From the IMG/VR virus record IMGVR_UViG_3300021368_002114, positions 1 through 64,000 of that record: a stretch of DNA of 64,000 bases; one strand, given 5' to 3'. The notes beneath the pieces are model-generated. The model had not been told where the DNA came from and ran no database searches. It saw only the letters and a list, made by a program, of their open reading frames with translations. Made by a program: the position numbers and the translations under genes. Numbering within the stretch: the first letter of the stretch is position 1; every line of letters begins with the position of its first letter. Below are positions 7,731-41,016 of this stretch, in pieces. The DNA is from a virus.

Positions 7731-8444
7731 ATGGAAAAACAGTCATTAAATAGGTTTGTATCTAAATACAACCTTGCAGGTTTAGTAGAATCTGTAAAAT
7801 GGGAATCTAAAGATGGTTCTCTAACTACTTCTTTCATTTCTGATGATAAATCAGTTTTAGGAAGTGTAAGTATGAAAGAATTCGATGGAACGAATTCTGA
7901 GTTTGGTGTATATGATACAACTAAACTAACAAAAATGTTATCAGTTCTTGGTAGTGATGTTGATTTCACTATTAATGATATTGATGGTAAACCGGTTTCT
8001 TTGAAATTCAAAGATGGTTCAACAAATGTAAATTATATGTTAGCTGATTTATCAGTTATTCCTAATGTACCAGATTTGAAACAATTACCAAACTTTGATA
8101 GTGAGATTAAATTAGATTCAAACTTTATTTCAAAGTTTATCAAAGCAAAAGGTGCATTAGCAGATGAAAACAATTTTACATTCACTTGTAAAGATAACAA
8201 AGGAGAAATCATCTTAGGATATTCTAATATCAATACAAATAGAATTAACATAGATGTTGATTGTACTTGTGAAAGTGATGTAAAACCTATTTCTTTTTCA
8301 GCAACATACTTAAAAGAGATACTAATTGCCAATAAAGAGGCAACAGATGCTACTTTGAAGATTTCATCTCAAGGTTTGGCACATATTTCATTTGAAGTAG
8401 ATAACTATGAATCAAATTATTATCTTGTAGAAATCCAATCTTAA
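7731..8444 (+). CDS. DNA polymerase sliding clamp (T4 gp45-like)
   Basis: 237 residues, close to the 228 of T4 gp45. The N-terminus (SLNRFVSKYNLAGLVESVKW) matches phage clamps. The protein is acidic and rich in alternating strands, as expected of a trimeric ring around DNA, and the end (YESNYYLVEIQS) fits the last strand. It has its own promoter (P2), 34 bases from the -7 box to the ATG. In T4 the clamp also activates late transcription, which is relevant to the class 2 boxes described here. Confidence 0.85.
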   Translation: MEKQSLNRFVSKYNLAGLVESVKWESKDGSLTTSFISDDKSVLGSVSMKEFDGTNSEFGVYDTTKLTKMLSVLGSDVDFTINDIDGKPVSLKFKDGSTNVNYMLADLSVIPNVPDLKQLPNFDSEIKLDSNFISKFIKAKGALADENNFTFTCKDNKGEIILGYSNINTNRINIDVDCTCESDVKPISFSATYLKEILIANKEATDATLKISSQGLAHISFEVDNYESNYYLVEIQS

Positions 8445-10084
8445 TGAGTAACAAACACTTTTACGAAAGAAGTAAATTTTCTGAGTTCAAATCCAACACT
8501 ACTTATCATAAGTTATTAAAAATGACTGATGATGAGTTCGTTGAATGGGCTCGTCTACTTCGTAAAGAGGTTACTGAACAATGGGATGAGCGAGGTACTC
8601 CACCAGTTATTGGTAGAGATGAAGATGGTATTATAGAAAAGTTTAAGAAACTTAAATCTAACCCTGCTAATTATTGGGAAAAGGATTTAAGTGGTGATGA
8701 TGAATCACTAGGTATTATTAAAAACTTTAATAAGGATGCATCAGTTGTAAATCAGTTTTTCCCTACAATGTTAAAAACCAAGATTTCAATTGGTAAATCT
8801 GCAGATAATGGGTTATCTATTTATGACCATTTCTCAGACCCGAACATGGAAGATAAGTTCGTTCATATTATGAAACGAGCTGTAAAAAGAGATTCTATGT
8901 ATTCTTGGTCTCGTTCAATCGTAGATAAAAAAGATGAGAATCCTTTTTGGAATGGACAAGGTGCTATTGATTTTATCAAAGATGTTCACGATGGTAAAGT
9001 GTTTAATGGTAAGTATTCTGACTTAGCTATTTGGATTTCAAAAGTAAATACAAGAACTCTTGAAAACTATGGTACTTTTAATGAAGAGTATATTGGTACT
9101 AAAAACCTTTATCTAAAAGCTGAACAAGTTCAACAATTAAAAGATGAGGGTTTCTTATCAGATACTCAGTTATCTAATATAGATAGAATTGAATCTTCAT
9201 GGACATCTGAAGCAGGTACAACACAAAACTATGCATATCAAATTAGATGGTATGAAAAAGATTCAGGTATCTTCCCTAAGATACTACAAGTATTTAGATT
9301 GAGTTGTGGACAACCAGCCGTAAACTTTCCTGCATTAACTGCAAAGTGGATTTACGAAAACTACACGAAACACATTGATACAGATGAACCACTTACCATT
9401 TATGATTCATCAAGTGGTTGGGGAGGTAGAATCTTAGGAGCAATGAGTTCTCGTAAGAAGTTTCACTATGTTGGTACAGACCCTAATCCTGATAACTTCT
9501 TAGATGAAGAAGATATTTCTCGTTATGAGTATATGGCTAAGTTTTACAATGATAATTGTGTAGATGATTTCTCAGATAAACTTACATCATTCTTTGATGT
9601 AGAAAAACAAGGTAATACATACGAACTATTTCAAGATGGTTCAGAACTAATCTCAAATAATCCAAAGTTCCAAAAGTATAAAGGTAAATTAGATATTTCA
9701 TTTACTTCACCTCCTTACTTTAATAGAGAACAATACTCACAAGATGAGAACCAATCGTTCAAAGCATATGGTGAGTATGAAGATTGGAGAGATAACTTTT
9801 TAAGACCTACTCTAACCACAATTTATGAGTATCTTAAAAATGATAGATATATTCTATGGAATATAGCCGATATTAAAATCGGTGAATCTACTTACTATCC
9901 ACTTGAACAAGATTCAATTGATATATTGGAAGAGTTGGGATGTGAGTATAAAGGTAAACTCAAAATGTTAATGACCAGAATGGTTGGGTTAGACCCTTCC
10001 AAGAGTGGTATCAAAAACGCAGTAGAGTTTGAAGGTAAACAATATAAATTTGAACCGATTTTCGTGTTCCACAAAAAAAATTAA
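8444..10084 (+). CDS. SAM-dependent DNA methyltransferase (N4/N6 amino-methylating type)
   Basis: 546 residues. The SAM-binding motif I is near residue 320 (YDSSSGWGGRILGA) and the catalytic motif SPPY near residue 422 (DISFTSPPYFNREQYS), of the type used to methylate adenine N6 or cytosine N4. The long N-terminal part (~300 residues) has no recognised domain and may recognise the target or partners. It overlaps the clamp stop and lies between clamp and clamp loader. A role in protecting phage DNA from restriction is likely but inferred. Confidence 0.75.
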   Translation: MSNKHFYERSKFSEFKSNTTYHKLLKMTDDEFVEWARLLRKEVTEQWDERGTPPVIGRDEDGIIEKFKKLKSNPANYWEKDLSGDDESLGIIKNFNKDASVVNQFFPTMLKTKISIGKSADNGLSIYDHFSDPNMEDKFVHIMKRAVKRDSMYSWSRSIVDKKDENPFWNGQGAIDFIKDVHDGKVFNGKYSDLAIWISKVNTRTLENYGTFNEEYIGTKNLYLKAEQVQQLKDEGFLSDTQLSNIDRIESSWTSEAGTTQNYAYQIRWYEKDSGIFPKILQVFRLSCGQPAVNFPALTAKWIYENYTKHIDTDEPLTIYDSSSGWGGRILGAMSSRKKFHYVGTDPNPDNFLDEEDISRYEYMAKFYNDNCVDDFSDKLTSFFDVEKQGNTYELFQDGSELISNNPKFQKYKGKLDISFTSPPYFNREQYSQDENQSFKAYGEYEDWRDNFLRPTLTTIYEYLKNDRYILWNIADIKIGESTYYPLEQDSIDILEELGCEYKGKLKMLMTRMVGLDPSKSGIKNAVEFEGKQYKFEPIFVFHKKN

Positions 10085-10087
10085 ATT

Positions 10088-10300
10088 ATGAATTTACAAG
10101 AAATTGCAAGAAAGTTCAGAATCTCTGATAACTTTCTAAACTCAAAAGAAGATGGATTACTAATCGTAGCATCATCATTACAAGATATTATTTCAGAAAT
10201 GAATAGTGGTAATATCGATAGAAATAAAAAAGAATCTCTAATTGAAAAATTAGAAAGATTAACATCTTTCTGTAAAGAAGTTAAAAACTCATCATTCTAA
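10088..10300 (+). CDS. Small helical hypothetical protein
   Basis: 70 residues, highly charged and predicted mainly helical, with no recognised family. It sits 3 bases after the methyltransferase gene and 1 base before the clamp loader gene, so it belongs to the replication operon. No Cys pair, signal peptide or membrane segment is seen. Confidence 0.6.
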   Translation: MNLQEIARKFRISDNFLNSKEDGLLIVASSLQDIISEMNSGNIDRNKKESLIEKLERLTSFCKEVKNSSF

Positions 10301-10301
10301 T

Positions 10302-11246
10302 ATGGCCTTTTTTGAAGATACAACAAATCAAGAGGTAAACAACTCATTATGGGTTGAGAAATATAGACCTCGTAAACTAACAGAATATGTTGGTAACGAA
10401 CACCTTAAACAAAAGGTAAGTGATTATCTTCAAAGTGGAGATGTACCTCATCTTTTATTTTTTGGTAAGGCAGGTACAGGTAAAACAACCTTAGCAAAGT
10501 TAATTGTTAACTCAATCAATTGTGATTACATCATCATTAATGCATCTGATGAGAACAATGTAGATACAGTTAGAAACAAAGTAAAAGGTTTTGCTTCAAC
10601 TGTTGGTTTTAAGGATATGAAAGTAGTAATCTTAGATGAGTTTGATTACATGACACCTAATGCACAGGCAATACTTAGAAACTTGATGGAAACTTTTTCA
10701 AAACATTGTAGATTTATTCTAACTTGTAATTATGTTGAGAAAGTTATTGACCCGATTCAATCTCGTTGTCAAACATTTCAGATTGTACCACCAACTAAAA
10801 AAGATGTTGCAGTACAAATCTCACAGATTTTGGGTAGAGAGGAGATTAAGTTTCAACCCACAGACCTTGTACCTATCATTGATAGTTCATATCCCGATAT
10901 TAGAAAGATTATTAATACTTGTCAGTTAAATTCTACCAAAGGAGAATTAAAACTCGATACAACCTCTGTAATCGATTCGGATATAAAATCAAAGGTAGTT
11001 GAGATTCTTAAAGGTAGTGATTCAAAACCAAACAAATGGAAGAATATCAGACAGGCTGTTGCTGATGCCAGAATCCAAGATTTCACAGAATTATATACAT
11101 TCTTATATGAAAAAGTTGATGAGTATGGTGGTAATAATACTTCTAATATTATACTGATTTTATCAGAATCACAACACAAAGATGCATTGGTAGTTGATAA
11201 AGAAATTACCTTTATGAGCTGTATCATACAAATAGTTGCATTATAA
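10302..11246 (+). CDS. Clamp loader large subunit (T4 gp44-like AAA+ ATPase)
   Basis: 314 residues against 319 for T4 gp44. Walker A FGKAGTGKTT near residue 55, Walker B VVILDEFD near 112, sensor 1 region FILTCNYVEKV, and an SRC arginine-finger motif (DPIQSRCQTF). It opens and loads the clamp encoded at 7731-8444. The small subunit (gp62-like) is not adjacent, unlike in T4, but lies at 16493-16948. Confidence 0.92.
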   Translation: MAFFEDTTNQEVNNSLWVEKYRPRKLTEYVGNEHLKQKVSDYLQSGDVPHLLFFGKAGTGKTTLAKLIVNSINCDYIIINASDENNVDTVRNKVKGFASTVGFKDMKVVILDEFDYMTPNAQAILRNLMETFSKHCRFILTCNYVEKVIDPIQSRCQTFQIVPPTKKDVAVQISQILGREEIKFQPTDLVPIIDSSYPDIRKIINTCQLNSTKGELKLDTTSVIDSDIKSKVVEILKGSDSKPNKWKNIRQAVADARIQDFTELYTFLYEKVDEYGGNNTSNIILILSESQHKDALVVDKEITFMSCIIQIVAL

Positions 11247-11359: not shown

Positions 11360-11509
11360 ATGAATCAGGTTTATATGAATAATCTACAAAATATAATTGA
11401 CAACGAAAGTTGTGATACAACTTACACCCCTAATCTGGGGGAATTTACAAGCACAAGTACTTACGAAAATATTAAAATTTACTATGATTTCATTAAGGAG
11501 GATTTGTAG
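11360..11509 (+). CDS. Small hypothetical protein
   Basis: A 49-residue open frame in the 307-base gap between the clamp loader and TonB receptor genes. Start ATG at 11360, acidic C-terminus (FIKEDL), one Cys. Two tempting hairpins (ACAAC-GAAA-GTTGT and a CCCC/GGGG pair) fall within this frame and are more simply explained as coding. The rest of the gap (11247-11359 and 11510-11553) is AT-rich with no further gene supported. Confidence 0.5.
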   Translation: MNQVYMNNLQNIIDNESCDTTYTPNLGEFTSTSTYENIKIYYDFIKEDL

Positions 11510-11553
11510 TATGAATATGTTATGTTTAATTTAATAAAAATGGAAATTTAATT

Positions 11554-14256
11554 ATGAAAAAACTATTATTAGTTGGATTGATGATGTTATCATCATTTAT
11601 TACTTTCTCACAAGTTAGTGGGACAGTATTAGATTCTGATACTAAATCACCATTACCAGGAGCAACTGTACTCATCCAAGGAACGGATGAAGGGGTTGTA
11701 ACTGATTTTGATGGAAAATTTAGTTTAGAATCTGCAGTCGCAGGAAATACTCTTGTTATTTCGTATCTTGGATATGAAACAGCAGAAGTTGATGCTGTTG
11801 ACGAAATCACTGTGGAACTTCTACAAAGCTTGAATACACTTCAAGAAGTAGTTGTTACATCAGGAGTTATTGATGTTGCAAAGGTGAGAGAAACACCGGT
11901 AGCAGTATCAACTATTAAGGCAAGTGAAATTGCACTAAAGACAGGAAACTTAGAATTTCCTGAAATTATGAATAAAACACCAGGTGTGTATGCTACTAAA
12001 CAAGGTGGTGGATATGGTGATTCAAGAATCTCTTTAAGAGGTTTTGACCAAAGAAACACATCATTCCTAATTAATGGACAACCAGTAAACGATATGGAAA
12101 ATGGTTGGGTGTATTGGAGTAACTGGCAAGGTCTTACAGATGTTGCAAGTGGAATCCAAATTCAGAGAGGTTTAGGAGCTTCAAGATTAGCAGTACCATC
12201 AGTAGGTGGAACTGTATCAATCTTTACAAGAGCTGCTGAAAAAACTGAAGGTGGTTCTGTAACTCAGATGGCGGGTAACGATGGTTACTTAAAATCTACT
12301 GTTACTTACAACACAGGTAAAAGTGAGAATGGATGGGCTTCATCTTTCCTATTAACAAGATGGGAAGGTGATGGATATATCTATAATACAAGTGGTGAGG
12401 GTTATACTTACTTCTTTGCATTAGGATATTCACCTGAAGGTTCTAAACACGATGTAAACTTCTCTTTCTTAGGGGCTGGACAATGGCACCACCAAAGAGA
12501 TGTTTGGGTATCAATTAGAGATTACCAAAACTTCGGTACTGAAGGTATTGATAGAAGATGGAACTCAAATGGTGGTACTTACCAAGGTGAAGAATTCTCA
12601 ATGAGAAGAAACTTCTACAACAAACCATTAGCAACATTTAACTGGGATTTTCAAATCTCTGATAATGTAAAACTTGCTACCTCCTTATATGGTTCAGCAG
12701 GTAGAGGTGGTGGAACAGGTCCAAGAGGTAGAAACTACTACAACTCGGAAACTGATATTCTTCCTTTCAGAAAAGATTTAACAGAACACTACTTAGAAAA
12801 TGGTAGAGGTTCAAGAACTGCAGATGGATTTATCGATTACGATGCAGTAGTTGCATTCCAAACTTCTAATACCGATGCTTATAGTGGTGGTATTAGTGGA
12901 TATGAAGGACAACTTATCGCATCTAATGGATTTAGAGATGATGGTGTAAATAGAGCTGGTCTTATTAGAAGAGCATCTATGAACTCTCATGACTGGGTTG
13001 GAGCAATCTCTAACTTAGAAATCAATAGTGGTAAATTTAAGTACTCAATCGGATTCGATTTAAGAAACTATAAAGGATATCATTATAGAACTGTAAACAA
13101 CCTAATGGGCTTTGATGGTTACTACTCAACTGGTAACAAGAACTCAGCAGGACAAATTATCAACACTACAATCGATGCATCTCCATTCCAAGATACTGGA
13201 ATTAGAGGACCAAAGATTGATTATTACAACATTGGATATGTTGGATGGCAAGGTGTTAATGGTTTAGTTGAATACAATGATGATGAGAAACTAACTGCAG
13301 TATTACAAGCAGGTTTATCTAATCAATCATTCCAAAGAGAAGATTTATTTGACCAACCAGCACAACCATTATCTGATAAAGTTAATGTAGGTGGTGGATA
13401 TCTTAAAGGTGGTGCAAACTATAACTTTAATGATAACTCAAATGTATTCTTCAACGCAGGTTTCATTTCAAGACAACCTCAGTTTGGAACTGTATTCCCT
13501 AACTACGCAAACGCAGTTAATGATGATTTACAAAACGAAGAAATTCGTTCAGTAGAATTAGGATATGGATTCACATCTGCTAAATTTAACGCTAACGTAA
13601 ACCTTTACTCTACAACATGGGGTAACAGATTCGTTACAAGAAGTTTATCTAACCAACAAGGTGTAGATGGTTCAGCACAATTTAGAAACATTGATGTAGT
13701 ACACAATGGTATTGAGTTTGAAGGTACATATAGACCAACGAACCAATTAACTCTTAAAGGTATGTTATCAATCGGTGATTGGAGATATACTAAAGATTTC
13801 TCAGCTGAATTATTTGATGACCAACAACAATCAATTGGTACAGGTACTCTTTACACAAAAGATGCTAAAGTTGGTGATGCAGCACAATTCACTTCTTACT
13901 TTGAAGCTGATTATAGACTCGGTAGATTTAATGTAGATTTAGGATATAGATTCGTAGATGGATTATATGCTGATTACTCTATTACTGATTCAGCGTTTAC
14001 TTCACCTGATAACGATGGAGCATTAAAACTTCCTTCGTATGGTTTAGTAGATGGTGGTGTTACTGTTAATATTGGTAAAGGAATATCCTTTAGAGCTAAT
14101 GTTAACAACTTATTTGATACTGTTTATATTGCAGAATCAAACTCTAACATTCATGCAACTTCAACTTCAGAAACATGGAACGGTATTGATACAAGAAACT
14201 CAGTATGGTTCGGATTCGGGAGAACTTGGAATGCATCTCTTAAATACAGATTCTAA
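11554..14256 (+). CDS. TonB-dependent outer-membrane receptor with CarboxypepD_reg-like domain
   Basis: 900 residues, complete. Signal peptide 1-20 ending FSQ; beta-sandwich regulatory domain ~21-90 (VSGTVLDSDTKSPLPGATV ... DGKFSL); TonB-box-like EVVVT at 98-102; plug ~115-235 (NKTPGVYATKQGGGYGD, ISLRGFDQRNTSFLINGQ); the rest is a 22-strand-type barrel ending with a terminal Phe (SLKYRF), as outer-membrane proteins do. This architecture is typical of Bacteroidota nutrient receptors. No SusD, TonB or ExbBD is nearby. It lies between phage genes in the same AT-rich style and ends at a strong terminator, so it is integral to the genome. Possible roles are phage receptor mimicry, superinfection exclusion or nutrient uptake during infection; none is proven. 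Confidence 0.93.
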   Translation: MKKLLLVGLMMLSSFITFSQVSGTVLDSDTKSPLPGATVLIQGTDEGVVTDFDGKFSLESAVAGNTLVISYLGYETAEVDAVDEITVELLQSLNTLQEVVVTSGVIDVAKVRETPVAVSTIKASEIALKTGNLEFPEIMNKTPGVYATKQGGGYGDSRISLRGFDQRNTSFLINGQPVNDMENGWVYWSNWQGLTDVASGIQIQRGLGASRLAVPSVGGTVSIFTRAAEKTEGGSVTQMAGNDGYLKSTVTYNTGKSENGWASSFLLTRWEGDGYIYNTSGEGYTYFFALGYSPEGSKHDVNFSFLGAGQWHHQRDVWVSIRDYQNFGTEGIDRRWNSNGGTYQGEEFSMRRNFYNKPLATFNWDFQISDNVKLATSLYGSAGRGGGTGPRGRNYYNSETDILPFRKDLTEHYLENGRGSRTADGFIDYDAVVAFQTSNTDAYSGGISGYEGQLIASNGFRDDGVNRAGLIRRASMNSHDWVGAISNLEINSGKFKYSIGFDLRNYKGYHYRTVNNLMGFDGYYSTGNKNSAGQIINTTIDASPFQDTGIRGPKIDYYNIGYVGWQGVNGLVEYNDDEKLTAVLQAGLSNQSFQREDLFDQPAQPLSDKVNVGGGYLKGGANYNFNDNSNVFFNAGFISRQPQFGTVFPNYANAVNDDLQNEEIRSVELGYGFTSAKFNANVNLYSTTWGNRFVTRSLSNQQGVDGSAQFRNIDVVHNGIEFEGTYRPTNQLTLKGMLSIGDWRYTKDFSAELFDDQQQSIGTGTLYTKDAKVGDAAQFTSYFEADYRLGRFNVDLGYRFVDGLYADYSITDSAFTSPDNDGALKLPSYGLVDGGVTVNIGKGISFRANVNNLFDTVYIAESNSNIHATSTSETWNGIDTRNSVWFGFGRTWNASLKYRF

Positions 14257-14266
14257 AAACATAAAT

Positions 14267-14293
14267 AAAGGGGGTGGTAACATCCCCTTTTTT
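14267..14293 (+). terminator. Intrinsic terminator after the TonB receptor gene
   Basis: A ten-pair stem (AAAGGGGGTG with CATCCCCTTT, one G-T pair) closed by a GTAA loop and followed by a run of T. It is the clearest intrinsic terminator in the window and lies 10 bases after the receptor stop codon. Confidence 0.85.
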
Positions 14294-14317: not shown

Positions 14318-14557
14318 ATGAAAACTAAAAAAGACTTGAAGCCATTATTATACAAATATGGTGTGATTTACTTCGGAACATCTTTAATGATGTTTTCACC
14401 CTTCGTTATTGACTCTTGGGTTGGTAAGGTAGGAATGATTATTGGACTAATCCTTATAACAGTTCAAACTCAAACAACAAAACAATATAACTTATCTTTA
14501 TTAAATTTAGTGGGGATTACAGGTTACTTATATGCATTAATAACATCATTAACATGA
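14318..14557 (+). CDS. Small membrane protein
   Basis: 79 residues from the ATG at 14318; the open frame extends further upstream, but that part overlaps the receptor gene and the terminator. Two or three hydrophobic segments are visible (YGVIYFGTSLMMFSPFVI, VGMIIGLILITV, LVGITGYLYALI). It overlaps the following kinase gene by 4 bases. No family is recognised. Confidence 0.6.
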   Translation: MKTKKDLKPLLYKYGVIYFGTSLMMFSPFVIDSWVGKVGMIIGLILITVQTQTTKQYNLSLLNLVGITGYLYALITSLT

Positions 14558-15090
14558 GTAAACTGATAAACCTCTATGGTGGACCTGGTATTGGTAAATC
14601 ATCAATTGCTGCAGGAGTTACCTACAAACTAAAAAAGAAACATATAAGTTGTAATAACCCATACGAGTTTCCAAAAAGATTAGCTTGGGATAAAAACATA
14701 CCAGCGATATCAGACCAACTCTATGTATTTGCTAATCAACATAGAGGAATTGCTGAGTGTTATGGTAAGGTAGATTATATAGTTATTGATTCACCAATTC
14801 TATTCTCTACTATTTACAAAAGATATTATACAAATGGTTATCCAGCTGAATTTTATGGAAAGCCCTTTCATGATTTTGTAATTGATTTACACAAACAATA
14901 TGATAGTATTGATATTCTTTTAGAAAGAACTACTGACGGTACTCATAATGAAAAGGAAAGATATCAAGATTTAGAAGAATCAATTGCTATCGATAATCTA
15001 TGTAAACAAGTATTAGATGAAGTTGGTAATCCATATCATACGATAAAAGTAGGACCAAAAACAGTTAAGAATATACTAAAGTTGTTATGA
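14554..15090 (+). CDS. P-loop ATPase/kinase (AAA_28 or nucleotide-kinase-like)
   Basis: 178 residues. P-loop GGPGIGKSS at residues ~9-17; YIVIDSPILFSTIY (DSP, Walker B-like); LLERTTDGTHNEKERYQD, a lid-like charged segment. This layout is common in phage proteins resembling NadR-type or deoxynucleoside kinases. The substrate is unknown. It overlaps both neighbours by 4 bases. Confidence 0.6.
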   Translation: MSKLINLYGGPGIGKSSIAAGVTYKLKKKHISCNNPYEFPKRLAWDKNIPAISDQLYVFANQHRGIAECYGKVDYIVIDSPILFSTIYKRYYTNGYPAEFYGKPFHDFVIDLHKQYDSIDILLERTTDGTHNEKERYQDLEESIAIDNLCKQVLDEVGNPYHTIKVGPKTVKNILKLL

Positions 15091-15956
15091 ACAAATTAAT
15101 ATCAGTTGGATGTAGTTTTACAAACTGGCATTTCCCTACTGTTCCTGATTGGTTGGGGTATTGTTTTGATGAATATGAAAACATAGGAAAAGAAGGAGCA
15201 GGGAATCGTTATATATTTAATCAGATATTTAATTACATTCAAGATAATGATATTTCAAATACTTTTTTTTACATACAATGGACTGGTATTCCACGAAGAG
15301 ACTGGATGGGTGTTGGTAACGAACATTGGAATACTCTAGGTACATTTAATGAAGATGATGGTTTAGATGACTTAAGTGAGTTAAACCTATTACAATTTTC
15401 CACAGAATTCAGAAACTACTTATATACTACAAAAAAATATTTTGATTCATTTAATATACCTTATATTATGAATCACATGCTAGACCCTTGGTTTGATGGT
15501 AATTTAGGAGAACCAGGAATAGGAACTGTTCCAAATCATATCTATAAAGAGGGGATGAAACTTATAAATAACTCCACACATTTAGATGATATAAAGGAAA
15601 TATCAAAAGATAACTTTTTAGAACCTTGTTTAGAATTCTTTTCAATAGATAATAAAAACAAAGAATATGGTCACATTGCATTAGGACAGGAAAGTGAACC
15701 TATGCAAGATTACCACATGAATCCTATTTTATGTCTAAAATACGCAAGAGAAGTTGTTTATCCTAGACTTAAAGATATACTTAACTTAGAATCTATATTT
15801 GATAAAAAGTTAGATAAATTATCAGAAGAATGGCTAGAATCACTAAAAAGTGTTGATTTTATGAAACAACATAGGATATTACATGATAGAAGAGAATTCG
15901 AAAACTATAAGCATCCATATCCTTGGGATAAAAAATTTAAGAAAAAGCTTGTATAA
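15087..15956 (+). CDS. SGNH-hydrolase-like protein
   Basis: 289 residues. The N-terminus ISVGCSFTNW fits the nucleophile block of SGNH/GDSL hydrolases (GCSFT in phage members), followed by a GAGNRYI block with Gly and Asn, and QDYHMNP near residue 213 as a candidate Asp/His pair. Such enzymes cleave esters, for example acetyl groups on sugars. A second phage-type SGNH protein is at 47788-48654. Its last bases contain the TTG of promoter P3. Confidence 0.5.
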   Translation: MNKLISVGCSFTNWHFPTVPDWLGYCFDEYENIGKEGAGNRYIFNQIFNYIQDNDISNTFFYIQWTGIPRRDWMGVGNEHWNTLGTFNEDDGLDDLSELNLLQFSTEFRNYLYTTKKYFDSFNIPYIMNHMLDPWFDGNLGEPGIGTVPNHIYKEGMKLINNSTHLDDIKEISKDNFLEPCLEFFSIDNKNKEYGHIALGQESEPMQDYHMNPILCLKYAREVVYPRLKDILNLESIFDKKLDKLSEEWLESLKSVDFMKQHRILHDRREFENYKHPYPWDKKFKKKLV

Positions 15957-18910: not shown

Positions 18911-20293
18911 ATGGCAAAAAAGAAAAAGATTTTATTACTATCTGATGATTTGAGAATGTCATCGGGTATTGCAACTGTATCCAAAGAATTCGTTTTTGGA
19001 AACTTTGATAAGTTTGATTGGGTTCAATTAGGAGCCGCAGTAAATCATCCTGAAAAAGGGAAAGAAATTGATTTAGGAGATGATGCAAGAAAGATAAGTG
19101 GAATAAAAGATGCTTCACTTAAAATCATTCCTTGGAGTGGATATGGTGATGCAAATATCTTAAGAGAGTTGATAATGAGACATCAACCAGATGCAATCTT
19201 ACACTTTACAGACCCAAGATATTGGAGATGGTTGTATGAAATTGAAGCAGAAATAAGACAAAACATTCCAATTTTATTTTATCATATATGGGATGACCTG
19301 CCAGACCCCCACTATAATAGAAACTATTATGAATCATGTGATTGGTTGGGATGTATCTCAAGACAAACTTATGGTATCGTAAGTAGAGTTGGTAAATTAG
19401 AATCAGAAACAATCAAACCCTTAGAAGATTGGCAAGTAGATTATGTACCTCATGGTATTAATCCAAAAACATACAAACCAGTTGAAGTTCCATCTGAATT
19501 TAAGAAAGAACTTTTAGGTGATAAAGATTATAAGTTTGTTTTATTTTGGATGAACAGAAACATCAAAAGAAAACAACCATCAGATGTTATATGGGCATTT
19601 AAGAAATTTAGAGATAAACTACCAGAATCAGATAAAGATAAGGTATGTTTAATAATGCATACAGCACCAAGAGACCAAAATGGTACTGATTTAATTGAAG
19701 TTAAGAGAAGAATAGCAAATGAATGTGATATTAGATTCTCAACAGAGAGAGTTACACAAGAACAATTAAATTGGATTTATAATTTATCAGATTGTACAAT
19801 CAATATAGCTGGTAATGAAGGGTTCGGATTAACAACTGCAGAATCTATCATGGCAGGAACTCCTGCAATTATAAATGTGACTGGTGGATTACAAGACCAA
19901 TGTGGATTCAAATTAGATGGTAAATATCTAACTGCTGAAGATTACAAAGAAATCGGTTCACTTCATAATTGGAGAGAGTGGGAAGATAAATTAACCCATG
20001 GTGAGTGGGTGAAACCAGTTTGGCCAAGAGTTCAAACTATGGTTGGTTCACTACCTACTCCATATATTATAGATGATAAAGTAGATGTTGAAGAGGTTTC
20101 AGAGGCTATTAAGTATTGGTATGATAAAACACCAAAAGAAAGAAAAGAGGCTGGATTAATAGGTAGACAAGAATTCTTAGGTGATGTTGGATTAAATGCA
20201 GAAAACCAAAACAAAAAAATGGCAGAGGGAATCCTCAAAGGAATCGAAAATTGGAAACCAAAGAAGAAGTTTAATGTATATAAACTTAGGTAA
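18911..20293 (+). CDS. GT4-family glycosyltransferase
   Basis: 460 residues, GT-B fold. N-terminal ILLLSDDLRMSSGIATVS is the acceptor-side Rossmann start; YVPHGINPKTYKP and the donor-binding EGFGLTTAESIMAGTPAI near residue 305 are the standard GT4 signature with its Glu. It is the first gene of a ~12.7 kb run of sugar genes. Donor and acceptor sugars are unknown. Confidence 0.85.
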   Translation: MAKKKKILLLSDDLRMSSGIATVSKEFVFGNFDKFDWVQLGAAVNHPEKGKEIDLGDDARKISGIKDASLKIIPWSGYGDANILRELIMRHQPDAILHFTDPRYWRWLYEIEAEIRQNIPILFYHIWDDLPDPHYNRNYYESCDWLGCISRQTYGIVSRVGKLESETIKPLEDWQVDYVPHGINPKTYKPVEVPSEFKKELLGDKDYKFVLFWMNRNIKRKQPSDVIWAFKKFRDKLPESDKDKVCLIMHTAPRDQNGTDLIEVKRRIANECDIRFSTERVTQEQLNWIYNLSDCTINIAGNEGFGLTTAESIMAGTPAIINVTGGLQDQCGFKLDGKYLTAEDYKEIGSLHNWREWEDKLTHGEWVKPVWPRVQTMVGSLPTPYIIDDKVDVEEVSEAIKYWYDKTPKERKEAGLIGRQEFLGDVGLNAENQNKKMAEGILKGIENWKPKKKFNVYKLR

Positions 20294-20571
20294 TGAGTAA
20301 ACCAATCTTCATTGTTAGATTTCCAGGTTATTGGACTAATAATCAAGTTCAAGAATCTCGTAGGGCGATTCATAGTATGAAAGAACTTAGTGATGATTAT
20401 CATGTTTTAACTTTACAAGATAATGAAATCGAAACTACAAAATTTGAATGTTATAATTCACCACACGAGCCAGAGAAATTAGAAGAAGTAACTCGATTAA
20501 CAACACTTTCTATCGAAAGATGTTTAAGAAACGAAGAAGAAAACAGATTAAGAGAATTAGAAGATGAATAA
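20293..20571 (+). CDS. Hypothetical protein in glycan island
   Basis: 92 residues, starting with a strand-like IFIVRFPGYW and ending in a Glu/Arg-rich helix. It overlaps both glycosyltransferase neighbours by 1 and 8 bases. No family recognised. Confidence 0.65.
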   Translation: MSKPIFIVRFPGYWTNNQVQESRRAIHSMKELSDDYHVLTLQDNEIETTKFECYNSPHEPEKLEEVTRLTTLSIERCLRNEEENRLRELEDE

Positions 20572-21823
20572 ACCATTATTAGTATTTCAGGCACCAATAG
20601 CAACAAGAAGTGGTTATGGTGACCATTCAAGAGATATCTTGAAATCATTATTTGAATTAGATAAGTATGATATAAAAGTTGTACCAACGAGATGGGGAAA
20701 CACCCCACAAGACCAAATCAATCCACAAACTGAATTTGGTAAAAAGATATTAGAATGCTTGGCAACTCAAGTAACTAGACAACCTGATATTTTTATACAA
20801 GTATCTGTTGCAAATGAGTTTAGAAAAGTTGGTAAGTATAACATAGGAATTACAGCTGGAGTTGAAACTACAACTGCTCCACAAGAGTTTTTACAAGGTG
20901 GAAATCAAATGGATTTAATTATAACTCCATCTGAATTTACTAAAGAAACTTTGATTAAAACAAACTATACTCAAGTAGATAAAAGAACTCAACAAAAAAC
21001 AGGTGAACTAAAATTAGAAAAACCAGTTGAAGTTTTATTTGAAGGAGTAGATACAAAGGTATTCAATGGTAAGTGTTCAAAATCTATTTTGGATAATGTT
21101 GATACTGATTTTAACTTTTTATTTGTAGGACATTGGTTAGCAGGAGATTTAGGACAAGATAGGAAAGATGTTGGAATGATGATTCAAACATTTTGTACTG
21201 TTTTCAAAGATTTACCAAAGAATCAACAACCTGGTCTTATACTGAAAACCTCACAAGCAGGATTCTCAGTAATGGAAAGAGAATCAACATCTAATAAAAT
21301 TAAAGAATTAACAAATCAATTTGGTGATAAATGTCCTCCTATTCATTTAGTGTTCGGTGATTTATCTGAATCAGAACTAAACGATTTGTATAATGATAAA
21401 AAAGTTAAGGCATTTTTAATGTTCACTAAAGGTGAAGGTTATGGTAGACCTCTTGCAGAGTTCGCTACAACAGGTAAACCAATACTTGTTTCAAATTGGA
21501 GTGGACATAAAGATTTCTTACCAGAAGAAAATACAGTTTACTTAGAAGGTGAACTTAAAAATGTACACCAAACAGCTGCAAACAAATTCTTACTTAAAGA
21601 ATCAAAATGGTTCAATGTAGATTACTCTAAAGCAGCGGCTTCTATATTTGATGTTTATAAGAACTATAAAAGCCATACTAAGAAAAGTGCTGGATTAAAA
21701 ACTAATATAAACAATAACTTTAATTTAGATAAGATGACAAAAAGATTTGGAGAAATACTTGATAAGTACGTTAAAGTTGCTGTACCAGTTGCACTAAAGT
21801 TACCAGAAATTAAGAAATTATAA
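20564..21823 (+). CDS. GT4-family glycosyltransferase
   Basis: 419 residues. ATRSGYGDHSRDILKSL resembles the N-terminal loop of GT4 enzymes; VLFEGVDTKVF is the linker, and FTKGEGYGRPLAEFATTGKP is the donor-binding Glu motif. Probably a partner of the gene at 18911, since both share the serine/glycine loop after the first strand. Confidence 0.85.
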   Translation: MNKPLLVFQAPIATRSGYGDHSRDILKSLFELDKYDIKVVPTRWGNTPQDQINPQTEFGKKILECLATQVTRQPDIFIQVSVANEFRKVGKYNIGITAGVETTTAPQEFLQGGNQMDLIITPSEFTKETLIKTNYTQVDKRTQQKTGELKLEKPVEVLFEGVDTKVFNGKCSKSILDNVDTDFNFLFVGHWLAGDLGQDRKDVGMMIQTFCTVFKDLPKNQQPGLILKTSQAGFSVMERESTSNKIKELTNQFGDKCPPIHLVFGDLSESELNDLYNDKKVKAFLMFTKGEGYGRPLAEFATTGKPILVSNWSGHKDFLPEENTVYLEGELKNVHQTAANKFLLKESKWFNVDYSKAAASIFDVYKNYKSHTKKSAGLKTNINNNFNLDKMTKRFGEILDKYVKVAVPVALKLPEIKKL

Positions 21824-38289: not shown

Positions 38290-41016
38290 ATGAAGAAACT
38301 GTTTACATTAATATTATTTTTATTTTCCTTTATAGGATTCTCACAAAGTGGAGATGGGTATATAAATTATACTTCATGGAGAACACAATGTGGTAATGGA
38401 TGTAATATTCAAACAACGATAAATGGAACAGCCGTTACAGTTGCTGGTCATATGAATAATACATTAGAGTTTGATGCGGCAATGAGGGAATATGTTGGGT
38501 TAAGTGCAACCGAAATATTAAATAGTGGTGAAACCCAAGCATTTAGTGCAGGTGGTTTCGGTACTTCAGTACTTTCATATAATGGTGGTAGACCTATTGG
38601 ACCAGGTAACTCACAAGGAGAATATTATATAGTTGATTACACAGGTTGGTTCTATGCAAGTTCAACAGGTAACTATAAGTTTTGGACTTATTCAGATGAT
38701 TCACACGAATTTTGGTTAGATTTAGATGGTGATGGTGTATTAGAATCTACTGAAATGATAACTAAAAAATATAACGGTTCAGGTAATAATCAATCTACTA
38801 ACATTTCACTTACAAGTGGAACTTGGTATAAATTAAGAGTAAGATTCCATGAATTCACAGGTGGTGATTGGTTAAGAGTTCAATATCAAGACCCAACACA
38901 TAATGGTGGTTCAACTACTTCCTCTTGGAGAATACTTGGTGATACTACATGGGGTGATAAAGTATCAAATGCTGAACCAGCACCTACATTTGTAAATACA
39001 GTTGCAAATGATGGACCAAATGCTATTATTTATAAATCATTCAAAATAAATGATTATGCTAATAACAATAATCAGGGTGAATATAATGACCATCCACAAA
39101 GTTCATCTGATTTTGATGCTATGTTTGATTATGCTAATAAAAATACTACTACTTGGACACATTATGGTAGAGATACAGCAACAAAAGCATTTACTTGGCC
39201 ATACCCTAATCTTCTACCAAAACACGACAACACCAACTTTGGGTGGATAATAGAAGGTTACTTTGTACCCCCAACTTCAGGTACTTATAAATTTCAATTA
39301 AATTCAGATGATAGAAGTGATTTTTGGTTTGATGCAAATGATGATGGAACAATTACTAATACAGGTATAGGATTGGGTAATGGAGCTAGAGAAATTGATA
39401 TAACAAATTTAACAGCAGGTGTATCTTATAAGTTTAGAGTTAGATTTGAACAAGGAGCTGGAGGAGCCAACTTAACATTAAAATGGAAATCACCTGAAGA
39501 TATAGCAGCAGGAGCTGCATTTGCTTTCAATGGTAATACAATATACAGTATAGATGCAGATAATTATGTTGAACCTTTTCACTATGATGTAAACTATAAA
39601 TTTAGAAACATCGATGAAACTGGTTTTTCAATTAATACTTATTACGAAGTATCGGATTCTGAAATTGCTAAAAACTCAAACTCAAATACAATCTCATTAG
39701 ATGGAAATGGAGAAGCAACAATAACTTCTCAAGTAGATGAAGATTTAGTTGGACAAGGTAAGTACAATATCACCGCAACACCAGGTAATGTAGAATGGGT
39801 TGTAACATATATGCCAATGGTAACAAACAAATATACATACAGAATTGGTTTAGATGCTAGAGAGTTTCCAAGTAATGTAGATTTAGATGATGTAAATAAT
39901 ATAGAATTATTAGATTTAGTAGATACAGATGGAACATCAAGTTATTTTGGAACACCAGGATATTCGAACTCTTGGTCAGTTAGAAGTAATGACCCAAATG
40001 GTTGGAATGAATTTAATTATATGACTTGGAGTACTATTCCTTTTTCATCATCAAATTACTCTTCAAGTATAAGAAGTTTAGGTGGTGGTGGATATGCACT
40101 AAAAGTAGACTTAAACTTTAATGAGGTAACCGCATATAAAACTCAATATGTGGTTTTTGATTCACCAAGTACATCTGAATTAGAAGCAATGGTAGATGAT
40201 GTATTCACAGTAGCAGATGTTGTAATGGCATTTAACGAATTAGCAGGTGGTGGAATCAATGGTGGTTTCAAAGGTGATTTTGATTATAATGTTCAATATG
40301 CAAATGCAGATGTAAGTAGAGATGGTGTATTTGATTTCAAAGATACACAAATAATGTTAGATTTTCTAAATGGTGGAACTATGTTCGATGCATCTTATCT
40401 TGCAGCAGTAATGTCATTAACAGAGGTAAGTGCTTATAATTCTATGACATCTACAAATTGGACAAACTATGGTGGGACTCGTACAATGTTCCCACTTGGA
40501 TTGGTAACTGGTACAAAACAATATGATAAGAGTATTGCAGTACATTGGAAGGGTGATGTTAATATGTCTCATTCTCATTTACCATCGAGTGTACAAGTTA
40601 CAAGTATGGCTAGAAATATGACAATAAGTAATTCTTCAAAATCCATACAAAATCAGTTTGAAGTAGATTTAGATATTGAAAAGATTGGTGAAGAAATTGT
40701 GGTAACTCTAAAAGTACCAGAAAATACAAAAAATATAACTGGTTCTGAATTTAGAATAGGATATGATAATAGTAGAGTAACCTTTGATAGAATAGAAAAT
40801 GATTCTAATTTACAATCATTTTCAGCAAGAAGAAGTACTTACATAAAGTTAGGTTCAATATCATCAGATGGTTCTCAGAATCTAAATGGAGGTACTGAAT
40901 ATAAAATATACTTTAAGGAAACTAACAATCTTGATTCTTTCTTAGGTTTAGTTTCAGTATTGAATGTAGAGTTAGTTAAAAAAGATGGAACACAAATAGG
41001 AGTAATTGTAAAATGA
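38290..41016 (+). CDS. Large secreted protein B with two PA14-like domains and dockerin/cohesin-like C-terminus
   Basis: 908 residues. Signal peptide ends GFSQ. Two PA14-like domains: ~100-210 (VDYTGWFYASSTGNYKFWTY) and ~320-405 (GYFVPPTSGTYKFQLNSDD), a fold that often binds carbohydrate. Residues ~640-700 (FTVADVVMAFNELAGG, DGVFDFKDTQIMLDFL) look dockerin-like, then KGDVNMSHSHLP, then a cohesin-like last domain. The C-terminal third matches secreted protein A (32268-33956). The next gene is its paired lipoprotein. Confidence 0.75.
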   Translation: MKKLFTLILFLFSFIGFSQSGDGYINYTSWRTQCGNGCNIQTTINGTAVTVAGHMNNTLEFDAAMREYVGLSATEILNSGETQAFSAGGFGTSVLSYNGGRPIGPGNSQGEYYIVDYTGWFYASSTGNYKFWTYSDDSHEFWLDLDGDGVLESTEMITKKYNGSGNNQSTNISLTSGTWYKLRVRFHEFTGGDWLRVQYQDPTHNGGSTTSSWRILGDTTWGDKVSNAEPAPTFVNTVANDGPNAIIYKSFKINDYANNNNQGEYNDHPQSSSDFDAMFDYANKNTTTWTHYGRDTATKAFTWPYPNLLPKHDNTNFGWIIEGYFVPPTSGTYKFQLNSDDRSDFWFDANDDGTITNTGIGLGNGAREIDITNLTAGVSYKFRVRFEQGAGGANLTLKWKSPEDIAAGAAFAFNGNTIYSIDADNYVEPFHYDVNYKFRNIDETGFSINTYYEVSDSEIAKNSNSNTISLDGNGEATITSQVDEDLVGQGKYNITATPGNVEWVVTYMPMVTNKYTYRIGLDAREFPSNVDLDDVNNIELLDLVDTDGTSSYFGTPGYSNSWSVRSNDPNGWNEFNYMTWSTIPFSSSNYSSSIRSLGGGGYALKVDLNFNEVTAYKTQYVVFDSPSTSELEAMVDDVFTVADVVMAFNELAGGGINGGFKGDFDYNVQYANADVSRDGVFDFKDTQIMLDFLNGGTMFDASYLAAVMSLTEVSAYNSMTSTNWTNYGGTRTMFPLGLVTGTKQYDKSIAVHWKGDVNMSHSHLPSSVQVTSMARNMTISNSSKSIQNQFEVDLDIEKIGEEIVVTLKVPENTKNITGSEFRIGYDNSRVTFDRIENDSNLQSFSARRSTYIKLGSISSDGSQNLNGGTEYKIYFKETNNLDSFLGLVSVLNVELVKKDGTQIGVIVK

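Follow-up and report, generated by a model that had tools for sequence, protein, structure and literature searches.

The IMG/VR virus record IMGVR_UViG_3300021368_002114 is 65.3 kb long, and the 64.0 kb of it analysed here – the 64,000-nucleotide stretch referred to below as the window – encodes a complete TonB-dependent receptor of 900 residues beside the DNA replication genes of a T4-like phage. TonB-dependent receptors usually serve phages as doors of entry. Relatives of this one are encoded by many viral contigs, and the comparisons described here indicate that the gene has been transferred repeatedly, is under purifying selection, ends at a conserved terminator, and is linked to genes for a kinase, a small membrane protein and a nuclease that is secreted. 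We propose that it is a host-derived working transporter that would be made in the infected cell and import the substrate of its host orthologue, a proposal in which we place about even confidence; expression, localisation, TonB dependence and substrate are what we infer about the receptor.

The first-pass annotation of the window described a full-length Bacteroidota receptor encoded by a phage, and this description stands. The open reading frame (ORF) is intact, with Pfam matches to CarboxypepD_reg_2 (PF13715, 7.8e-20), Plug (PF07715, 4.1e-12) and TonB_dep_Rec_b-barrel (PF00593, 6.8e-14), and the protein comprises a signal peptide (residues 1-19), the CarboxypepD_reg domain (21-101), the TonB box EVVVT (98-102; positions 11845-11859, in the local sequence LQEVVVTSG), the plug (111-219), and a barrel (233-899) with a terminal phenylalanine. 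An AlphaFold model built with 114 sequences (mean predicted local distance difference test score, pLDDT, 84.7) contains the plug and, by our count, 22 barrel strands, and its fold matches in the Protein Data Bank (PDB) include Fiu (Z 38.9, 3.0 Å over 581 aligned residues), BtuB (Z 37.2), FhuA and others. Because BtuB, Fiu, FhuA, PqqU and OprC all rank highly, no substrate is read from the fold. Membership of the SusC/RagA subfamily was ruled out, TIGR04056 scoring 92.5 bits against an NCBIfam cut-off of 368 and SusD being absent from nine virus records. The remark that no SusD or TonB partner gene accompanies the receptor also holds: neither TonB_C nor SusD genes were found in the 65-kb record and eight other virus records, which may be fragments, such that absence is not proof.

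Receptor relatives are encoded in 430 stretches of viral contigs, of which the best 80 (68-96% identity) constitute the viral loci counted throughout; 80 bacterial loci form the comparison set. The TonB box is the same or similar in most of the 80 viral rows, with ten departing strongly (e.g. LDEASVIVN, LGEVSIIAN and LAAASVVAN), as do some of the bacterial rows. By a heuristic rather than SignalP, the N-terminus is hydrophobic in 76 of 81 viral rows, the other five being cut at the contig start (four) or given an upstream start by the ORF finder (one). A terminal phenylalanine is present in 77 of the 81, and the receptors of L040, L041 and L043 have 904 residues and end in SLKIQL.

Both a T4-type DNA polymerase encoded 5′ of the receptor (phrog_262, 6.9e-184), which resembles the polymerases of T4-like cyanophages and coliphages, and the phrog_168 clamp loader place the record among the T4-like phages, and a clamp-like ORF is also present in the upstream region. 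The 65-kb record has no T4-type portal (PF07230) match, and neither do five others of the nine virus records; the portal is present at E 1e-70 or better in the relatives G004, G005 and G008, on three large contigs (276, 253 and 191 kb) that also encode the receptor.

The first-pass annotation named two observations that would discredit the gene: misassembled junctions, or near-identity to a host gene with no homologue in other phages. IMG/VR contigs can contain host DNA, and 21 of the 80 viral loci have none of 15 core genes of the window near the receptor. The junctions of the window nevertheless recur in independent contigs of near relatives (L003, L005 and L014), and at least one of the 15 core genes (E<=1e-10) is present in 59 of the 80 viral loci, and at least three in 46, compared with none of the 80 bacterial loci. 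The search proposed for the nearest bacterial homologue and for the gene in other phage contigs yielded a bacterial receptor about 75% identical over its full length and many phage contigs encoding close homologues. Among 50,697 GenBank phage records, 39 match the receptor, all of them metagenomic, and two cover at least 80% of the query, at 33.7% identity. For the clade of the window we reject misassembly and contamination on the shared junctions, the core genes and the portal-bearing contigs, and an artefact of either kind is scarcely credible. One bacterial entry, L105, a contig from a Crocinitomicaceae metagenome-assembled genome, carries a receptor nearly identical to that of viral locus L081, and may itself be viral.

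A tree was built from 78 bacterial and 80 viral receptors, the one in the window among them, with rows shorter than 780 residues (L059, L121 and L126) left out. Over these 158 receptors it requires 11 changes of the label ‘virus’, at least nine of which are forced by well-supported branches, compared with a mean of 52.5 for shuffled labels. The gene has been exchanged with Bacteroidota hosts several times. The window belongs to a group whose 42 rows are all viral (Shimodaira-Hasegawa-like approximate likelihood-ratio test, SH-aLRT, 91) and which adjoins Flavobacteria MS024-3C, Polaribacter and an uncultured Flavobacteriaceae together with three viral rows; because of these tree neighbours, the viruses appear to infect marine Bacteroidota. 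Host genomes G001-G003 have one close orthologue each, and among 199 Flavobacteriaceae genomes 44 have a receptor match at E<=1e-150, six of these at 59% identity or more. The ratio of nonsynonymous to synonymous substitution (dN/dS, Nei-Gojobori script) is 0.12-0.24 in nine close viral pairs and 0.06-0.09 in five bacterial pairs, several of the latter near saturation at silent sites. Moreover, a long ORF (at least 780 residues) is retained in 79 of 80 viral rows, the lone exception being cut by the contig end. These values indicate that the phage gene is under purifying selection.

Rates within the protein, expressed as parsimony changes per site on the AlphaFold topology, were compared between 39 phage-clade sequences and 45 host sequences of more than 60% identity. 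Relative to the barrel strands, loops change at 1.01 (0.79-1.28) in phages and 1.09 (0.93-1.27) in hosts, and the plug at 0.33 and 0.32; the N-terminal domain is faster in the phage clade, at 3.5 times the strands, than in host orthologues, at 1.5. These ratios suggest that the plug and loops are kept as in hosts while the periplasmic N-terminal domain has been loosened. Plug identity between the window and its nearest hosts is 88-93%. Loops that are no faster than strands, together with a highly conserved plug, are more in keeping with a transporter that works than with a receptor changed to exclude other phages.

Of 78 viral copies of the receptor gene, 71 are followed by a hairpin and a T-run, compared with 35 of 400 other gene ends in the same loci (Fisher p 2e-49, uncorrected for kinship; the controls are a random 400 of 750 gene ends, and loci with fewer than 80 bases behind the receptor were dropped from the 80), as are 147 of all 158 copies, bacterial ones included. 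The first-pass annotation took this terminator for the only strong one in the window; it is the strongest at any gene end but not the sole one, as by one criterion -9 kcal/mol is attained at four of the 76 gene ends. The weight of the terminator rests on the comparison over many gene ends, because a scan by pattern alone found three where 3.8 were expected. A promoter scan returned 56 sigma-70-like sites where 65.8 were expected, and no promoter is claimed.

The position of the receptor varies among the phages. The window genes nearest to it on its two sides in the 80 viral loci are the gene at 8444 and the kinase in 15, the clamp loader and the kinase in seven, and several rarer pairs, with neither side matched in 20. 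When loci are anchored on the clamp loader instead, 35 of 79 have the receptor, as do 19 of the 31 that extend at least 12 kb. The gene guaB lies 41-67 bp 5′ of the receptor in 17 of the 80 viral loci, and among guaB-anchored viral loci with room for it the receptor directly follows guaB in 15 of 31; in L270, L271 and L273 the kinase follows guaB by about 11-13 bp, with no receptor in the locus. The gene has been gained recurrently at several phage positions. As an accessory gene of host origin that is under selection and has its own terminator, it qualifies as an auxiliary metabolic gene or moron, although no promoter of its own is shown, and with guaB abutting it in those 17 loci it is not always a separate transcription unit.

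In many relatives a secreted S1/P1 nuclease (PF02265, 4.5e-58; solved S1/P1 nucleases, E 2.8e-40) is encoded between the receptor and the kinase. All nine zinc-ligand positions of P1 nuclease are invariant in seven sequences and include the tryptophan expected to come first after signal-peptide removal. Anchored on the receptor, the nuclease is present in 16 of 80 viral and two of 80 bacterial loci. Anchored on the nuclease, there are 37 viral loci, and among the 35 whose upstream sequence spans 400 bp or more (L237 and L283 dropped) the receptor lies within 500 bp upstream in 27 and anywhere in the locus in 29; three of the six without a receptor encode remote nucleases at 28-32% identity. 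When 33 loci are clustered, with the partial L243 and L019 also left out, 17 of the 22 clusters formed at 90% identity show the pairing, as do five of the eight formed at 70%.

The small membrane protein belongs to a 19-member family (mean column identity 67%) found in the receptor-nuclease-kinase stretch of 19 of the 80 viral loci, and in relatives it accompanies the receptor or the nuclease. It has no Pfam or PDB match; that it resembles SWEET or PnuC-type proteins is no more than our impression. In three loci its place is taken by a YgjV-like protein (PF10688), to which a weak MtN3_slv match (E 0.57) belongs. The kinase model (pLDDT 80.5) most resembles the ribosylnicotinamide-kinase part of NadR with nicotinamide riboside (Z 15.9), ahead of thymidylate kinase (Z 14.7) and deoxynucleoside kinases; its profile found nothing convincing among PDB sequences. 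In the clamp-loader set the receptor is present in 26 of 28 kinase loci with at least 4 kb upstream of the kinase, compared with three of 12 kinase-free loci of at least 12 kb (p 4e-5, uncorrected for kinship). The window keeps the small membrane protein and the kinase of this module. A link to a known anti-phage defence system was rejected, none of five proteins matching a PADLOC model at E<=0.01. Downstream of the receptor, nadE occurs in four of the 80 viral loci, and nicotinamide adenine dinucleotide (NAD) synthase is encoded in the same variable stretch of L034 (11455-12204, PF02540 9.6e-50) and L042 (10764-11507). An insert between receptor and kinase in L002 (7933-11421) encodes three tandem paralogues starting MKPIIFTGDSFTFGEGLE, with akin ‘GDSFT/GCSFT’ genes in other relatives and at 15087-15956 of the window.

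We propose that the signal peptide of the phage receptor would direct its export, that host machinery would place it in the outer membrane and host TonB-ExbBD would drive it, and that it would thereby enlarge the import of whatever substrate the host orthologue imports. Among the related phages examined, most would carry it as part of an accessory import-and-salvage cassette with a cytosolic kinase and, in subsets of them, the secreted nuclease and the small membrane protein. Because the receptor is linked to a nucleoside-type kinase and a secreted nuclease, the substrate is most likely nucleic-acid-derived, and imported oligonucleotides, nucleotides, nucleosides or NAD precursors would then feed phage DNA synthesis or NAD. 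Tentatively, we suggest for large T4-like phages of marine Bacteroidota a complete scavenging line from the outside to the cytosol in which the receptor imports nucleic-acid fragments, the S1/P1 nuclease cuts them, the tiny membrane protein acts as carrier, and the NadR/thymidylate-type kinase traps the product; this would possibly be the first family of TonB receptors assigned to nucleic-acid-derived nutrients.

Several observations weigh against a nucleic-acid transporter. The window itself has no S1/P1 nuclease, and none was found in the nine virus records searched; among 46 receptor-bearing host genomes 33 have a PF02265 gene, yet the nuclease adjoins the host receptor in two of 80 loci, and by coordinates in one of the 33 nuclease-bearing genomes (G003). 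The kinase occurs without a receptor in L203, L222, L270, L271 and L273 and may be a core gene of the region, and related phages are not independent samples. Of the 80 host loci, 36 have the orthologue behind pgi and three (L108, L109 and L111) have GH16 adjoining it, which points to sugar; with GH17 nearby in L100 and L109 and SusD in L109 and L112, such beta-glucan neighbours are found in five of the 80. The receptor could then be a working transporter of another substrate – a glucan, another oligosaccharide or a metal chelate – from which the phage gains carbon and energy, with the neighbouring genes present for other reasons, and carbohydrate uptake has been proposed for the receptor of a marine megaphage, Mar_Mega_1 (PMC9723777). 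The pgi synteny extends to remote members too and may have no functional meaning; by the queries used, none of the 80 viral loci has a carbohydrate-active gene beside the receptor, and the nuclease linkage is left unexplained. We consider this alternative rather doubtful, and keep beta-glucan as a rival idea only.

The first-pass annotation offered three functions – altered nutrient uptake, replacement of a receptor and a decoy – of which purifying selection, the conserved plug and loops, and the linkage to nuclease, membrane protein and kinase favour the one concerned with uptake, the others being less favoured. If the gene served superinfection exclusion or a receptor swap, the phage copy would displace or mask the host receptor of competing phages, and with the nuclease may trap DNA that enters the periplasm and destroy it there. 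Phages commonly use TonB receptors as their receptors, and exclusion proteins are known to target them, as Cor does FhuA (PMC11436027); a FhuA-Llp structure is among the PDB fold matches listed. Loop identity between the window and its three nearest hosts (0.72-0.77) is also somewhat below that between hosts (0.81-0.85), as a receptor change would predict, and between phages the flanking replication genes are often better conserved than the receptor (e.g. 96-99% versus 86% in L005). Against this, phage-clade loops evolve no faster than strands or host loops, plug and TonB box are both retained, and a near-copy would leave other phages with more receptors, not fewer, such that exclusion seems unlikely. 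A passenger role, as recently acquired host DNA without benefit, accords with the accessory distribution of the gene (19 of the 31 longer clamp-loader loci) and its several exchanges with hosts, but is very improbable given purifying selection, intact frames in diverged phages, the conserved terminator and recurrent gain at several sites. A working, host-derived transporter thus remains our preferred reading.

Table 1. Features around the receptor gene (positions in the window)
Feature	Position	Strand	Basis or remark
Clamp loader ATPase of phage DNA polymerase	10302..11246	+	phrog_168 3.4e-83; 5′ flank of receptor
48-residue ORF, function unassigned	11361..11510	+	directly 5′ of receptor; kept in near relatives
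TonB-dependent receptor, 900 residues, ATG start	11554..14256	+	Pfam, AlphaFold, PDB fold matches
Intrinsic terminator directly 3′ of receptor gene	14267..14290	+	conserved in viral copies
79-residue small hydrophobic membrane protein, family unassigned, probably three-helix	14318..14557	+	three hydrophobic stretches
P-loop kinase, NadR-ribosylnicotinamide-kinase / thymidylate-kinase fold (AAA_28)	14554..15090	+	PF13521 2.1e-10; phrog_2107 ‘thymidylate kinase’ 3.2e-13

The features flanking the receptor are summarized in Table 1. The gene does not lie between clamp loader genes, as had been thought: the clamp loader is upstream only, at least 74% identical in the 79 viral clamp-loader loci, and the membrane protein and kinase genes are downstream. 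Likewise, the start at 11360 given earlier corresponds to the conserved 48-residue ORF and not to that of the receptor. This small ORF is 72-84% identical in five viral loci with the same placement (L002, L003, L005, L006 and L007), is found also in L014, and possibly shares a transcript with the receptor. Adjoining the clamp genes is a 546-residue protein (8444-10084) with no Pfam match, conserved in many relatives, whose weak local PHROG matches include a DNA methyltransferase family; a 70-residue ORF at 10088 gained no identity from any search made. Farther upstream is a phage GroEL (6033-7649; phrog_5725 1.9e-176, above the NCBIfam GroEL cut-off), and GroES-like ORFs occur in 17 of the 80 related viral loci. 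Elsewhere, the window encodes a neighbouring glycosyltransferase-like pair (18911-20293 and 20564-21823; phrog_2170) and a 908-residue protein with PA14 and GLEYA domains (38290-41016), which may be a tail or fibre protein that binds sugar.

Among the closest known counterparts is the Bacteroidota host orthologue next to pgi (e.g. in Flavobacteria MS024-3C, L082, and Polaribacter sp. Ww478, L083), which has the same domains at about 75% full-length identity and, like the phage copies, mostly has a terminator behind the gene. Unlike it, the phage copies lie in replication or variable regions and are linked to the S1/P1 nuclease, the small membrane protein and the kinase. Viral members of the nuclease family keep all the zinc ligands and are mostly beside the receptor, whereas host copies are mostly unlinked. 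Phage-encoded TonB receptors are already known: a putative TonB-dependent receptor (SusC) of Mar_Mega_1, also present in LR745206, is reported as an auxiliary metabolic gene (PMC9723777), a ‘TonB-dependent receptor protein’ is named among the tail genes of a pelagiphage (PMC10504331), and TonB-dependent receptors are listed among reconstructed phage genes in a hot-spring study (PMC6302217). LR745206 matches the receptor of the window over residues 94-292 only, at 31.7%, and the text consulted on Mar_Mega_1 describes no nuclease or kinase linkage. In the literature covered, with preprints and most subscription journals outside the search, neither this receptor family nor its conserved terminator nor the receptor-nuclease pairing is described, and within that scope the pairing is new.

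Many T4-like phages thus carry a TonB receptor of their own under selection, paired with a secreted nuclease and a kinase. Phage supply of an envelope transporter or salvage enzyme, as proposed here, has precedent in pstS of cyanophages and in PnuC and the NadR-like NatV of T4-like KVP40, which act at the periplasm or inner membrane, whereas the product encoded in the window is an outer-membrane TonB receptor. To our knowledge, uptake across the outer membrane is a step beyond the reach of known phage nutrient genes. If the proposal is right, the virus would rewire outer-membrane uptake in infected marine Bacteroidota, phages would have brought together genes that hosts mostly keep at separate places in their genomes, and this phage cluster would point directly to what is imported by a conserved receptor located beside pgi in many Flavobacteriaceae.

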